DNA from: Sulfobacillus sp.
GTDB taxonomy: Bacteria; Bacillota; Sulfobacillia; Sulfobacillales; Sulfobacillaceae
Direction of reading: 5' to 3'
Assembly (NCBI GenBank): GCA_027309085.1
Contig: DAIDDL010000016.1
Span: forward strand, 48,352 to 80,450
Length of the DNA stretch: 32,099 nt
Part shown: positions 2,131 to 29,386 of the stretch, piece after piece
How the letters are laid out: the number at the start of each line of letters is the position of its first letter
How positions within the stretch are numbered: the stretch's first letter is position 1
Position numbers and translations under genes: made by a program
The notes under the pieces: model-generated
What the model saw: the letters and a program-made list of their open reading frames with translations, nothing else
Told to the model about the DNA's origin: nothing
The model's database searches: none

Positions 2131-2419
2131 GATGAACAGTTCCTTTCCGCACCCGGTGCTCGGTCGCGGACGCGACCGGGTCCCAGCGGGCTCGGGGGAC
2201 GGGCCGGATCTCGAATCTGCCCCACGTGCTCACCCGAAGGCGGCGACACTCTCAGGTCCCCGAGGCACCCACCACAAACTCCTAGTCGCATGCGTAATGG
2301 CAGAGAGAATTCCGTGGGGGGACAGGGTGCTAATCCTAGCTTACGCCACGGCGAACGGGCAGGAAAGGCCCATTTTCATGCGCGCAGGTTGCCGGGCGTA
2401 GCGCGGCATGGGGAACTCC
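2131..2419 (-). ncRNA. Candidate bridge RNA in the IS110 leader
   Basis: This non-coding leader lies between the element end and the transposase start, where IS110 elements encode their bridge RNA. On the minus strand it contains a stem of the CCAC/GTGG type enclosing CTCTCTGCC (complement of 2299-2307) on one side and TAGG on the other. CTCTCTGCC is identical to the nine bases of target DNA at 780-788 beside the insertion, and TAGG could pair with the CCTA across the right junction. That is the arrangement expected of a target-binding loop. A second perfect hairpin (8-bp arms, 2161-2178) lies nearer the gene. The call rests on position, structure and this match; no covariance model was run. 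Confidence 0.45.
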
Positions 2420-3056
2420 TAAGTTTTTCAGGAGATGCCAACGGTCGGCCACTTGTTCCGCCTGGGGTGCTCCCTCGCGCGCCGCGTTCGCATACCCGAC
2501 GGCCCGATCGCGGCTCACCGTCTCGACAGACGGGTTCTCCCGCAACCACGCGGCTACGGTGTCGGCCGTGCGATCCGGCAAGATATCGATGACACGATGG
2601 CGCTCTAAATCCACCACCACAGTGGCATAGCGATGCCCTTTCGCTAACGCCCAGTCATCAATGCCCACAATCCGCGGGGGCGGAAACGTGGGGTCCGGCT
2701 GCGCTCGCAAAATGCGCACCACCGTAAAGCCACTGAGCGTGACCCCACAAACGCGCCGACCGCCGGCCATAGGCCGACACCCAAGGAGTTAACCGCATGC
2801 AGAAAATGCTCTGAGGACAGTCGGGATTGTCACACCACAATTTCGGCACCACCAATTCCACCGAGACCGCCGCATCACTCCATGGCAGGTCATGCGCCTT
2901 CCGCGAATACGTGCTGTGAAAACGGGACGAGACCTGGCCACAGTGAGGACACGGAGCGGATGCGGCCTCGATCCATAACGTCAGAAAAAACTGGTGCCCA
3001 TCATCCGTGATCGTGAGGTCTTGGGTCGGCACGGCGGGCAAAATTGAGAGCGACAT
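2420..3056 (-). pseudogene. ISL3-family transposase, N-terminal half (internal lesion, cut by IS110)
   Basis: The start ATG at 3056 has GAGGAG seven bases upstream. The first frame encodes the ISL3 zinc finger (CPHCGQVSSRFHSTYSRKAHDLPW, then CDNPDCPQSIFC). At about 2735-2775 the reading moves to another frame, and the linker between the zinc finger and the catalytic domain is shorter than in relatives, so a small deletion with frameshift is likely. The second frame gives the DDE domain ([50 protein letters not shown]) and ends at the IS110 junction. The C-terminal half continues at 790-1. The terminal repeat of the element is at 3126-3152. Confidence 0.85.
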
Positions 3057-3125
3057 AGCTGATCTCCTCTGGGAACATTTGGAAAATCTGTCCATATTAT
3101 ACCGCGGAATTTCGACATCGGATCA

Positions 3126-6894: not shown

Positions 6895-7057
6895 ATGCAC
6901 AAGGCTTTATTCACCGCGCTGTGCGACTTGAAGCGCCCTAATACCGATCTTCCGAGACTTTCGCATTATAAATGAGCCGTTGACAGCCAATCCAACGCAA
7001 AAGCAATTGTTCTTGCGCTTTGGACGGATACAAGCGAAAGCGATACCCCGTCATCAT
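6895..7057 (-). pseudogene. IS200/IS605-type TnpB N-terminal relic
   Basis: Two ATGs at 7057 and 7054 follow AAAGGAGGTG. The product starts MMTGYRFRLYPSKAQEQ, then LLRWIGCQRLIYNAKVSEDRY, which is the helix-turn-helix N-terminus of TnpB/OrfB. A stop at 6938 ends it after 39 residues. One frame over, RFKSHSAVNKALCM continues to the edge of the aldehyde dehydrogenase leader, so a one-base loss caused the stop. All nuclease motifs are missing. The intact Shine-Dalgarno means a 39-residue peptide could still be made. Confidence 0.75.
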
Positions 7058-7491
7058 GTGACACCTCCTTTCGCAAATATTTGTTTTGTGAAAATAACCC
7101 GATTACCATTGCAAATCCGCCTGAATACTCACGAAGAACACTTAAAAACCTGATCAGGCGAATCTTGACCTCAAGGTCTAAGAAGGGGAATGCGCGAGGA
7201 TTACTTATAAAGGACCCCATTGTCAAGACAATATTTCTACGGATTTTTAGTTACAGTACCTCGGATGTCGATGGCAAAATCGGATCTGTTTTTGGGGGCA
7301 TAGCGTGGTCGATGGTTCACCCATTTCCCCCTACACTCCGCGCGAGGTGAGCCGTGTTCTTGGCGGCGAAACCGAGACCCGGAGTCCCAGCCCGCAGGGC
7401 TGTTTCTGGGGTCCACTATAACTGTTCAACAATGTTCTTAAAATCCTATTAGTGAACCTCGAGATCAACACTTCATGAGAATCACACATTT
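7058..7491. other. Intergenic with a GC-rich hairpin (7373-7412)
   Basis: No gene is evident. A stem-loop centred on CAGCCC-GCA-GGGCTG (7388-7402), with weaker outer pairing, resembles the structured right ends of IS200/IS605-type elements. Overlapping the 3' end of the next gene is an imperfect 14-bp hairpin (7469-7501, loop CACAC) that might act as a weak terminator for the thioredoxin-like gene, though no T-run follows. Confidence 0.35.
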
Positions 7492-24296: not shown

Positions 24297-25495
24297 TTAG
24301 ACGGCGGGAGCTATGGGTTCTAGGGTCACCTTGTATCCCAGCGCCGCTAAGCGCCGGGTTTCGCGGCGGATCACCGCCTGCTGATCGCGTTGATCAAAGT
24401 AGTTGCTCCCCAGGTCTTGGTAGACGACATCCGGGCCCTTCAAGATCGCGTAAGCGGCGATGAGAATGTGGCGGCCCGTGGCCATCGCCGCGCGTTTCTT
24501 GCCGCGGCGGCCGGCGAGATGGTGGAAGACAGCGCCGAGGTAGGTCCGCGTCTTGCCGGCGGCCTGCCCCGCCTCCACCAGCGCCGTCCGCAAAGCCTTG
24601 CTGCCCTTGCGGGTACGGGCGGATTGGGCGGATTGGGCGTGGCCGGCACTCTCGTGCTGGCCCGGGCTGAAGCCGGCCCACGAGACGAGTTGGGGCGCCG
24701 AGGGAAACCGCTGCATGTCCCCACTTCGGCTAAGAGGATCTCGGCCGTGCGGCGCCCGACTCCGGGAATCGTGGCCAACCGTGTGAGGGCATCATCAAAA
24801 TTGGCCAGACGGACGGTGATTTCATCACTGAGCGTGGCAATTTGCTGGTCGAGAAAGGTCATGTGTCCCAGCTGCACCTTGAGCATGAGCCGCTGGTGAG
24901 CCTGGACGATCCCGTGCAGCGCGGCCGTCAAGACTTGCGGATCGGATTCGCCCGCCGCCAAGGCGGCCAGAATCCGCTGGCCCGAGACGCCGAGCACATC
25001 ACTGATCACGCTGCTGAGTTTGATATTGGCGCCCTCCAACACTTTCTGGAGGCGGTTCGCCTCCTGGGCCCGGGTTTGGACCAAACTGGTCCGGTAGCGG
25101 ACCAGTTCCCGCAGTTCCCGTTGGGGTCGGGGCGGAATGTAGCTGCCCTTGAGCACGCCCACCCGGAGCAGCGAGGCAATCCACTGCGCATCCTGCACAT
25201 CGGTCTTGCGGCCGGGCATCCCCCGAATCTGCTGAGGATTGACCACCAGCACCGCGGAAAAGTCATACGACTCCAGCACATTCACCACCGGCTTCCAATA
25301 CACCCCGGTGGCTTCCATCGCCACATGCGTCACGCCACAGGCGATCAGCCAATCCGCCAGCGCCAGCAACTGATCCGTCAGCGTGCCAAACGACCGCGTC
25401 TCCGAGAGGGTAGGGGTAAACACGCTCGCCACAATGACCTTCTTATGAATATCCAGCCCCGTCCCATAGGACACGACCACCTTCAGCGTCTCCAT
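24297..25495 (-). pseudogene. IS110-family transposase, frameshifted
   Basis: From ATG 25495 (GAGGTGATC upstream) the frame gives GTGLDIHKKVIVASVF, AMEATGVYWKPVVNVLE, GRKTDVQDAQWIASLL and IPGVGRRTAEILLAEVGT. It is then thrown out of frame near 24715-24722. The next frame resumes MQRFPSAPQLVSWAGF, then GQHESAGHAQSAQ with the catalytic Ser, and runs to TAA at 24297. The intact relative at 883 reads ELGTDMTRF here, so about four bases (or one base plus a codon) are missing. No slippery run is seen at the site, so decay is more likely than programmed frameshifting. Apart from this one lesion it is full length, so the damage is probably recent. Confidence 0.88.
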
Positions 25496-25754
25496 GATGA
25501 TCACCTCACGAGAGTAATCCTCCGACAGCCACGGAATGTCTCAGAAATCTCCTCTACGTGCTAGCCTGGGGCGGGCGTCCGCCCGCCCCAGGCTGCAACA
25601 GTCAAGTGTGCTCGACGTGGCCGGAATTCGTCTCCTCTACGAGCTCGAAGCATCAGAGTGAACACGATCTCGGTCGGAGGTTACGACAATCATAGCGCGG
25701 TCCGCCCCCTTTTTCATCCGCGTGTGTACCCCGCGAGGGGCATGGGAGGTCTCC
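25496..25754 (-). ncRNA. Candidate bridge RNA region of the second IS110 copy
   Basis: Non-coding leader of about 260 bases in the position of a bridge RNA. It holds a perfect 14-bp hairpin with a GTCC loop (25563-25594, AGCCTGGGGCGGGC arm), matching in position the CGGTCGCG hairpin of copy one. A further segment reads CACTCTG...GAGGAG on the minus strand. GAGGAG could pair with CTCCTC and CACTC matches ACACTCCT at the left flank (24231-24238), but these overlap and are weak. Confidence 0.3.
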
Positions 25755-27104: not shown

Positions 27105-27959
27105 TTAATACCCTCCCCCCCCACGGGACCACTCAGGTTTAGGACCAACACCATACCCCAATGTGGCTCCACCTTCAATCGGAATTGCCTGCCCAGTAAT
27201 AAAGGATGCATCGTTACTGGCAAGAAAAAGCGCCAACTGAGCAATTTCGTCTGCTGTAGCAATACGTCCCATCATATGTGACAAATCACAATCAGAGCGT
27301 GCACGTTCGGGGTTAGGTTGTTGTTGGAACCATTCTTCTAATAAAGGAGTCATCACGCCTGCAGGACAGATTGCATTGACTCGCACTCCTAAAGGTGCTA
27401 AATCCACGGCCAAAGACTTAGTCAGTGCAATCACAGCACCTTTTGTGGCACTATAAGCCGGATTTCTCATTTGTCCTACGAGCCCATTCATCGATGCCAT
27501 ATTGACAATGCTACCGTGTCTACTTTTTAGATAGGGCAATGCATACTTTGTACAATAAAAGACGCCACTTAAATTAACCCCTAACACGCGTTGCCACTCA
27601 TGGTTCTCAATCTGCTCAATAAACTTTGGTAGGATTACCGCCGCATTATTAAACAAGATGTCGATCTGGCCATAAATGTCTTTAACATTTTGCATCATCG
27701 ATTCGACTGCTGGCTCCGACGATACATCTGTAGTGATCGAAACTGCCTCCTTGTTGCCCGCTACGAGTTCGCTAGCCACCGACATTGCTCTTGCGGCATT
27801 AATATCGCAGACGACCACTTTAGCTCCTTCGCGAGAAAACAAATGAGCTGTTGCGCGCCCAATCCCACTACCACCACCGGTAATCACGGCGACTTTGCCT
27901 TTCAATTTATCACTCGGACACCGCTCAATCTCGCCATTAACGCCGATCCCATACGCCAT
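27105..27959 (-). CDS. SDR-family dehydrogenase (third intact copy)
   Basis: 284-residue SDR with a roughly 20-residue N-terminal extension (MAYGIGVNGEIERCPSDKL) before KVAVITGGGSGIG. Other motifs are NNAAVILP near 105, NMASMNG, catalytic YSATKGA near 175, and GGATLG near the end. The start at 27959 has AGGAGG eight bases upstream; further in-frame ATGs upstream run into a structured non-coding region. It is more distant from the two YTPFVE-type SDRs. Being between the dehydratases and the lactonase, it may oxidise L-fucose, D-arabinose or a keto-deoxy acid. Confidence 0.85.
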   Translation of the reverse strand: MAYGIGVNGEIERCPSDKLKGKVAVITGGGSGIGRATAHLFSREGAKVVVCDINAARAMSVASELVAGNKEAVSITTDVSSEPAVESMMQNVKDIYGQIDILFNNAAVILPKFIEQIENHEWQRVLGVNLSGVFYCTKYALPYLKSRHGSIVNMASMNGLVGQMRNPAYSATKGAVIALTKSLAVDLAPLGVRVNAICPAGVMTPLLEEWFQQQPNPERARSDCDLSHMMGRIATADEIAQLALFLASNDASFITGQAIPIEGGATLGYGVGPKPEWSRGGGGY

Positions 27960-27989
27960 GCACATATCCTCCTCATGATCGAGAAGATC

Positions 27990-28125
27990 TCGATACGGTG
28001 AGGAAACCTCCCCGGCCTGAAGGCCGAGGCTTCCTCCCCCAAAAGCTTTGGGTTCGGTGGGTATTGAACCCATCGAACCCAAGAGCCGCTGTATCCTCCC
28101 CTTAAAAAGGGGGGTTTTAGCAAAC
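27990..28125 (-). ncRNA. IS200/IS605 right-end / omegaRNA-like structured segment
   Basis: Three strong hairpins stand in series. On the minus strand: CCCC...GGGG around TTTTTAA (28096-28111); a two-part stem GGGTTCG/CGAACCC (28050-28080, internal GTGGGT/ACCCAT); and GAGGAAGCCTCGGCC pairing with GGCCGGGGAGGTTTCCTC (28002-28038). A terminal GGCCTTCAGGCC hairpin followed by GGGGAGG is typical of right ends that encode TnpB guide RNA 3' ends. No TnpB gene is adjacent. It finishes about 30 bases before the Shine-Dalgarno of the SDR gene, so any transcript would form its leader. Call is by resemblance only. Confidence 0.35.
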
Positions 28126-28309
28126 GGGCTCCCTTGATAATAATCCTTCTAAAGTAAATACTACAATCCCCACATCTTCATAAGGCTAATAAAGCTAGTG
28201 CCTTGACTCTATTCGGACCGCAGGTTCGTGGACCTTCCCACATTGGTAGCGTTAGTGCGTGCGTAGACTACTAAGAAGATCTCCCCATAGTCTATTTCTT
28301 ACATGGCAT

Positions 28310-29386
28310 TTACACGGTGGCCACAGACATTTTGTCTAATGTATCAAGGTCCCACTGTACCCCCGTTCCCGGCGTCTGTGGAACATTAACCATGCCCTTC
28401 TCATCTACTAGTGGTTCACGCACTACTGGATTGGTTGTTACTAATGACTCGTAATAGGTAGTATTAGGGATAGCACAAGCCACATGAATGTTGGGCAATC
28501 CTCCACCGTGTACCTCTGCTCGTAGTTGATAGGCATCAGCCAGGTGAGCAATGCGAAGAGCTCCAGTAAATCCACCCTTCAGAGCCGTACTCGTGCGCAC
28601 AATGTCGCCAGCACAAAAGTGAATGAAATCAGCAGTATTGTAGTGACAACCATCGGAAGTCTCGGCCACTAAAAGCGGAATTTTTAACTGGCTGCGCAGA
28701 CGCTGATACGAACTAATACTAAACTCTCGCATCGGTTCCTCATACCACAGAAATCCTGCATCCTCCAGCGCCTGACCCAAGTACAGCGCATCTTGAAAAT
28801 CAAATCCCGCAGAACCATCGTACATCAACGGCACTTCATCTCCGACATGTCGTCGCAACGCTTTGGCCAACGCCGCATCGCGATGGGTGTCTCCCCACGC
28901 GTGAAGTTTTATCGCAGGATACCCTAAGGCCAGACACTGGTCAGCCACAGATAGAAATTCATCGACGGTGGAAAATGTCACCGTGCTGGCATAAGCTGGG
29001 ATACTCGTCCGAAACCCTCCAAAGAGTTGATACAGAGGCAATTTGGCGACCTTAGCGGTAATATCCCACAATGCTATGTCCACTGCGCCTAACATATAGA
29101 TTGGGAATTCCTCAATGCGATCAACTTCCCACACTTTTTTCCATAGCAACTCTTTCAACAACGGATCTTCGCCTAGCAACAATTGTTTTAGCCGCCGAGC
29201 TACCAAGTCTAATGCAATCTGCCCCCGACGAATTTCACTGTAACCCGTCACGCCGTCGTCGGTCACAATACACAGTACGGCTGATTGGTCAAAAGGATCA
29301 GATCCTGGCAATCCCGCACGCCATCGATATAGTGCTACTGAAAGAGTTTTCGGTAACAAGTATGCCTTGACATCAATTATTTTCAT
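28310..29386 (-). CDS. Enolase-superfamily sugar-acid dehydratase (mandelate racemase subgroup)
   Basis: 358 residues: N-terminal capping domain (MKIIDVKAYLLPKTLSVALYR) and a TIM barrel with metal and catalytic positions AIKLHAWG (Lys in the KxK/KxH site), LMYDGSAGFD, LWYEEPM and VAETSDG. EVHGGGLPNIH near 295 supplies the expected His, and YYESL the Glu. ATG 29386 has AGGAGG ten bases upstream. It follows fucD by 51 bases, so it is in the same operon. Having two enolase-type dehydratases suggests a second aldonate substrate (for example D-arabinonate or L-rhamnonate), or a racemase role; the sequence does not settle it. Confidence 0.85.
   Translation of the reverse strand: MKIIDVKAYLLPKTLSVALYRWRAGLPGSDPFDQSAVLCIVTDDGVTGYSEIRRGQIALDLVARRLKQLLLGEDPLLKELLWKKVWEVDRIEEFPIYMLGAVDIALWDITAKVAKLPLYQLFGGFRTSIPAYASTVTFSTVDEFLSVADQCLALGYPAIKLHAWGDTHRDAALAKALRRHVGDEVPLMYDGSAGFDFQDALYLGQALEDAGFLWYEEPMREFSISSYQRLRSQLKIPLLVAETSDGCHYNTADFIHFCAGDIVRTSTALKGGFTGALRIAHLADAYQLRAEVHGGGLPNIHVACAIPNTTYYESLVTTNPVVREPLVDEKGMVNVPQTPGTGVQWDLDTLDKMSVATV

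Follow-up and report, generated by a model that had tools for sequence, protein, structure and literature searches.

The locus and its parts

The window, meaning the whole 32,099-nucleotide stretch of Sulfobacillus DNA analysed here, carries on its minus strand, between 9370 and 29386, genes for a FAA hydrolase, a rhaM mutarotase, an amidohydrolase, an SDR-family dehydrogenase and enolase-family proteins, which at a guess serve sugar-acid breakdown. Two IS110-family transposase genes are found at 883-2130 and 24297-25504, the second split over two frames (PF01548, PF02371), and pieces of an ISL3-family transposase occupy two overlapping frames at 2336-3095 (PF01610, PF14690). Upstream of the SDR gene lies a hairpin-rich stretch, the parts of which, read along the minus strand, are as follows.

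28137..28140, minus strand: TTAT motif, the presumed target, directly left of the element; TTAT in 13 of 17 aligned copies
27998..28136, minus strand: the 139-bp non-autonomous element, highly probable as such and a PATE (palindrome-associated transposable element) by its features; 155.4 bits over 27999-28140 in a cmsearch with R1, a covariance model from 12 full copies that include the window copy itself
28083..28133, minus strand: left-end compound hairpin with stems GAGCC/GGCTC and GCT/AGC and an inner C-run/G-run
28048..28082, minus strand: central hairpin with the loop TCAAT within GGTTCAATACC and a compensated stem
28002..28034, minus strand: right-end hairpin, GGAAGCCTCGGCC-TTCA-GGCCGGGGAGGTTTCC
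27998..28001, minus strand: right tip TCAC, placed by the 17-copy alignment
27974..27997, minus strand: would-be guide flank, within the SDR leader
27105..27959, minus strand: SDR-family dehydrogenase gene, downstream of the element (Pfam PF13561 1.3e-63, PF00106 2.6e-59)

The SDR gene starts with the ATG at 27957-27959, a choice made by the spacing from the Shine-Dalgarno sequence at 27967-27973 with another in-frame ATG two codons upstream, and on that choice the element ends 38 bases before the start codon. The element boundaries themselves come from the alignment of 17 copies and from analogy with precise insertions of related elements.

Folding of the minus strand from 27960 to 28160 gives −86 kcal/mol, where 200 shuffles give −63.9 ± 4.5 and none is as stable (z −4.9), and the plus strand folds equally strongly (z −5.2), as is to be expected of palindromic DNA. 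The three consecutive strong minus-strand hairpins described in the initial annotation are thus present, as is the stem of the last one, which contains GGCCTTCAGGCC and is followed by GGGGAGG, and the distance to the SDR Shine-Dalgarno sequence, given there as about 30 bases, measures 24. The absence of an adjacent tnpB holds as well: with 14 TnpB queries from the same genome the only TnpB-like stretch in the window is a minus-strand remnant at 6950-7078, some 21 kb away, with 42% identity over 43 residues to the TnpB of locus L007 (E 3e-5). The extent had been set too short, at 27990-28125, in that the feature runs from the TTAT motif at 28140 to the TCAC at 27998, and the hairpins do not together make up a right end: the outer one is a left end, and the unit consists of left end, central hairpin and right end.

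Palindromes lie near both ends of the element in the fold, and the tips CAAGGGAG... and ...TTTCCTCAC are non-complementary by eye, so that terminal inverted repeats are lacking; at 139 bp it is too short for a transposase.

Copies in the family and beyond

Within its own genome (G000; 4.49 Mb in 172 contigs) the matches to the stretch are its own place and two short pieces, both of the terminal hairpin. Across 34 genomes of the family BLAST at E <= 1e-3 finds a match in 22, many of them to the terminal hairpin only, and near-full-length matches number fifteen with the window copy included. An alignment of 17 copies has the left motif TTATC in 13, TTGTC in L033, TCATC in L028 and AGATC in L034, L027 being cut by a contig end. 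The right end is intact in 13 of the 17, terminating TCAC, CCAC or CTAC; it is unrecognisable in L028, L034 and L035, and L046 is without a right-end hairpin. By eye the hairpin of L046 (1493-1609) seems to have gone as if by recombination between two GGGGAGG-like repeats.

Beyond these limits the flanks of the copies are unrelated, except for L029 and L030 (G033 and G031), which have one common site; L037 and L049, left-end fragments outside the alignment, also lie at one common site. The window copy shares 93% of its bases with L024 and 65-76% with each of ten further full copies.

R1 gives 20 matches at E <= 1e-16, in 13 of the 34 family genomes, and seven of these count as independent because 12 are training copies and one is a shared site. 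Weaker matches (E <= 0.1) extend to 29 of the 34, many covering the terminal hairpin only and some lying beside IscB genes. In a phylum sample searched with stricter filters the own genome alone of 149 has a match at E <= 1e-6, and none of the 148 others does. The exact 24-base left-end pattern, which catches just part of the copies, occurs in six stretches of five genomes in an 84,980-species collection, namely Sulfobacillus benefaciens AMDSBA1 and four Bacillota MAGs, and it has no exact match in viral contigs. The plasmid collection gives only 31-base matches to the terminal hairpin, in two plasmids, and the phage collection gives none.

Across 29 loci (L023-L051) the 14 TnpB queries find one TnpB-like stretch beside a near-full-length copy, that of L028, where it is on the opposite strand and 249 bp beyond the copy; L042 and L051 also have a TnpB-like stretch, but there the element match is the terminal hairpin only.

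Kinship to IS200/IS605 elements and PATEs

Two ISs of the genome that carry tnpB, L007 (C129; 28.2 bits, E 3e-7) and L008 (C161; 16.2 bits, E 0.0016), have left ends that R1 matches, and the left plan they have in common with the element consists of TTTATCAAA, GTAAAACCCC, a hairpin and GGGGATATAA or GAGGATATAA (GGATATAA), the common right end being ...GGGGAGTCGTCAC. They differ in carrying tnpB and in being without the strict central-hairpin motif. The terminal hairpin is similar to right ends found next to TnpB, both in this genome and in the family (L018, L201, L225 and others). No autonomous element combining such ends with such a central hairpin was found. The genome has 19 TnpB-domain matches, 5 Y1_Tnp matches (one with a stop), 10 RRXRR (IscB) matches and 13 HEARO matches, 11 of them over cut-off, and is thus rich in parts of RNA-guided transposons; several of the TnpB and IscB matches are fragments.

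The initial annotation offered as one reading a plain IS200/IS605 scar, and of this the kinship stands and the scar does not. That the stretch is the decayed right end of a former tnpB-bearing IS would agree with a terminal hairpin 93% identical over 29 bases to the right end that adjoins a TnpB fragment in this genome. An orphan right-end scar does not fit, however. The element possesses a left end, whole units of nearly the same length are found at unrelated sites, in the loci tested without tnpB, and no TnpB protein of the own genome matches inside it; this origin is extremely improbable. An IscB-side RNA (HEARO) on the plus strand, or an ISC end, is barely conceivable: the HEARO and RRXRR matches put such systems in the genome and similar terminal hairpins are found at RRXRR-gene loci of G006 and G004 (L039, L043), but HEARO reaches its gathering score nowhere in the window, does not figure among the 12 Rfam matches up to E = 10 in 27900-28310, and the strict central-hairpin motif is in 0 of 12 HEARO/IscB loci. 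A HEARO/IscB omegaRNA origin (RF02033) was rejected on these grounds, the Rfam covariance model giving no such match.

By its features the stretch is a PATE, a kind of element defined by near-terminal palindromes and by the absence of terminal inverted repeats, of target duplication and of a transposase (PMC3119063). The Haloquadratum walsbyi PATEs described there are alike in lacking terminal inverted repeats, in having IS605-like near-terminal palindromes, in being too short for a transposase, in being nested in mobile elements and in having diverged copies; their lack of target duplication is matched here in a type II relative and in the nested copy L029. They differ in host, a haloarchaeon as against a Bacillota family, and the present elements have two left motifs, TTAT and T[TC]GAT. 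A central hairpin with a recurrent loop between the ends is a further feature, stated here for the present elements alone. The name comes from a haloarchaeon, and its use here rests on features and not on descent. Of the two left motifs, TTGAT is the ISDra2 target (PMC8612924) and TTAT is among the left cleavage sites of other TnpB elements (PMC9956272). A PATE-like IS605 copy in Halanaerobium hydrogeniformans that consists of ends only (PMC7290912) is alike in having palindromic IS605 ends without tnpA, but it is a single sequence that holds the last 58 nt of tnpB, whereas the element here has no tnpB remnant and many copies in the family.

Overall the hairpin-rich stretch before the SDR gene is, with high confidence, a complete 139-bp mobile element without a gene, one PATE copy of the IS200/IS605 kind. 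As such it is an ordinary kind of thing, with one structural question, that of the central hairpin.

Other element classes and signs of movement

Two further classes, set by eye like all the classes here, have related ends. Type II, with a different left end, takes in L132, L134, L135, L137-L141, L237 and, from the own genome, L227; a third class comprises L131, L130, L041 and L036. One type II element occurs five times with equal score in G026, in differing contexts (L137, L138, L139, L235, L236).

Direct signs of movement come from two insertions. In L236 (196-340; G026:C107) a 145-bp type II element sits within iscB, 3' of TTCGAT with nothing duplicated; its flanks when joined give an open 60-codon IscB stretch, and an IscB of the own genome (L098) aligns to either side of the element with 46-48% identity. 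In L029 (1505-1643) a type I copy at TTTAT lies within the left-end loop of a type II element, and the joined flanks align across the junction to L140 (~62%, 147 columns) and L141 (~61%, 150 columns), which makes two of the six type II elements tried; with L134, L135 and L227 the alignment goes up to the junction only and with L237 there is none. By eye L037 and L049 look like the L029 nest.

Against this stands that the precise insertion is seen in type II, which is only distant kin of the window copy. L142 also speaks against, in that its left flank is part of another repeat, the continuation of which past TTTAT is absent to the right of the element; that insertion is not clean or is decayed, and no empty site was found for it. 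The repeat in question, of at least 110 bp, is dispersed in G031, G033 and G029 (L231, L232, L234, also L233); three copies run through GGGTTTATAGGGGG(G)CTTAACAG, and the L142 element starts at the TTTAT of the repeat. For the window copy no empty allele was found among homologues of the SDR gene at E <= 1e-60, which are present in 5 other family genomes with 58-68% identity; the DNA upstream of these is unrelated by eye and too diverged to serve as empty sites. In L132 (1469-1715) a type II element shows a tandem repeat extending from the 3' portion of its left end through the central hairpin to the right end.

The central hairpin

Many of the elements have between their ends a hairpin whose stem varies in sequence and yet stays paired, with the loop T-C-R-A-Y, and this is so under different left ends. 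The loop is perhaps reminiscent of a tRNA T-loop. A tRNA scan found nothing.

For 29 distinct hairpins the five inner pairs form in 89.7% of cases; redealing the 3' letters lowers this to 72.9% (maximum 79.3% of 2000), and with swapped arms the mean folding energy goes from −18.5 to −10.0 (minimum of 300: −12.8), these statistics ignoring relatedness between copies. Motif scans supplied 23 of the set, among them the type II portion of the L029 nest, and the other six were placed by eye with no motif required; left out were ten of the 38 elements (L028, L034, L035, L036, L046, L129, L135, L141, L226, L227). A motif-blind check is weaker and points in the same direction: when the best hairpin with a 5-base loop is taken from the middle zone of each element, the zones of L237 and L227 being set roughly, the loop is TC[GA]A[TC] in 15 of 38, whereas 200 shuffles give a mean of 0.11 and a maximum of 1. 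The five loop letters occur somewhere in the middle zone in 30 of the 38, a count without a control, and L031, L033, L047, L129, L136 and L144 have another loop.

The central hairpin seems to recur beyond the apparent needs of end recognition. Probably it either aids transposition as a structure or belongs to an RNA that the element makes.

Is there a guide RNA?

A right end that resembles TnpB right ends, in a genome with 19 TnpB-domain matches, invites the reading that the element makes a trans-acting omegaRNA-like guide, in which the central hairpin and right end would be the scaffold and the SDR leader the guide, used by one of the TnpB proteins of the genome to re-install the element or to regulate. 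The recurrent loop and compensated stem of the central hairpin would agree with it, as would the size, which fits the right-end RNA of about 150 nt of the ISDra2 TnpB (PMC8612924). With that RNA the element has in common the right-end place, a similar length and a flank beyond the end; it differs in that no tnpB overlaps it. Omega RNAs derive from the tnpB 3' end together with the right end, and no tnpB is in or beside the element.

Among 60 TnpB 3' regions from relatives, our own choice among the matches listed, R1, which itself contains the central hairpin, has 16 matches at a cut-off of E <= 0.5, and 13 of them are the terminal hairpin alone. The other three are weak whole-model matches (21.2, 17.4 and 11.7 bits) that on reading hold no central hairpin of the kind in the element. 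The strict central-hairpin motif is in 0 of these 60 regions, in 0 of the 19 TnpB loci of the own genome and in 0 of 30 Y1 loci, a soft control because the motif catches just 19 of the 38 elements; it also has one chance occurrence outside an element (L046). A looser form of the motif has five matches in the 60 regions, four of them in one coding stretch.

There is no promoter-like site on the minus strand in 27900-28400, where two lie on the plus strand (2 found against 0.4 expected). The first 20 bases past the right tip match, in the own genome, their own place and one site with three mismatches (C123), which has GTGAC before it and not TTAT, so that the search for sites matching the guide proposed in the initial annotation yields no second plausible target. 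The element's own site in its empty state, which such a guide would ordinarily target, was looked for and not found. The covariance search proposed along with it returned no known RNA, no Rfam family reaching its gathering score in the window; CRISPR-DR29, HgcF, HgcC and others gave the weak matches far below gathering scores among the 12 up to E = 10 in 27900-28310 and were set aside. A terminator role was also dropped, with no terminator-like site in 27900-28400.

There is thus no positive sign of a guide RNA, and the guide RNA or co-opted regulatory leader put forward in the initial annotation finds no support, the TnpB 3' regions examined matching mostly by the terminal hairpin alone. That the element makes a trans-acting guide of this kind is very unlikely. 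A broader form of the idea, which we hold as a long shot, is that these elements, though gene-less, carry a small structured RNA from place to place, with the central hairpin and right end as a scaffold recognised in trans by a nuclease from other transposons of the host and each insertion supplying a new guide. If true, the elements would parasitise the RNA-guided machinery as well as TnpA, and the guide here would be the dehydrogenase leader.

Among the matches listed, literature titles (with subscription papers mostly outside the scope) include none on guide RNAs made by IS605 elements without genes or by PATEs in this family of bacteria, and PMC12558985 makes no mention of PATE, MITE, non-autonomous, orphan or tnpB-less elements. 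An end that looks like a guide RNA but has no tnpB need not be a domesticated guide; it can be a whole non-autonomous element, and this is a trap for genome scans that seek orphan guides by hairpins alone. The family also lends itself to asking whether IS605-type elements that lack genes retain a working right-end RNA, since TnpB, IscB and Y1 genes are numerous in these genomes and the elements have a recurrent internal hairpin.

Mobilisation and the SDR gene

Returning to the PATE reading, the element is presumably moved in trans by a Y1 TnpA. Such a Y1 (HUH) TnpA, encoded elsewhere in the genome, would bind the two end hairpins in single-stranded DNA and is predicted to cut at the TTAT and at the TCAC, and the resulting circle may then have been pasted into the leader of the SDR gene. 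Any effect on the SDR gene is probably passive, 139 extra structured bases having come to lie between the upstream gene and the Shine-Dalgarno sequence. A short palindrome, ATCGAGA-TCT-TCTCGAT, lies at 27978-27994, in the leader stretch that separates the element from the Shine-Dalgarno sequence.
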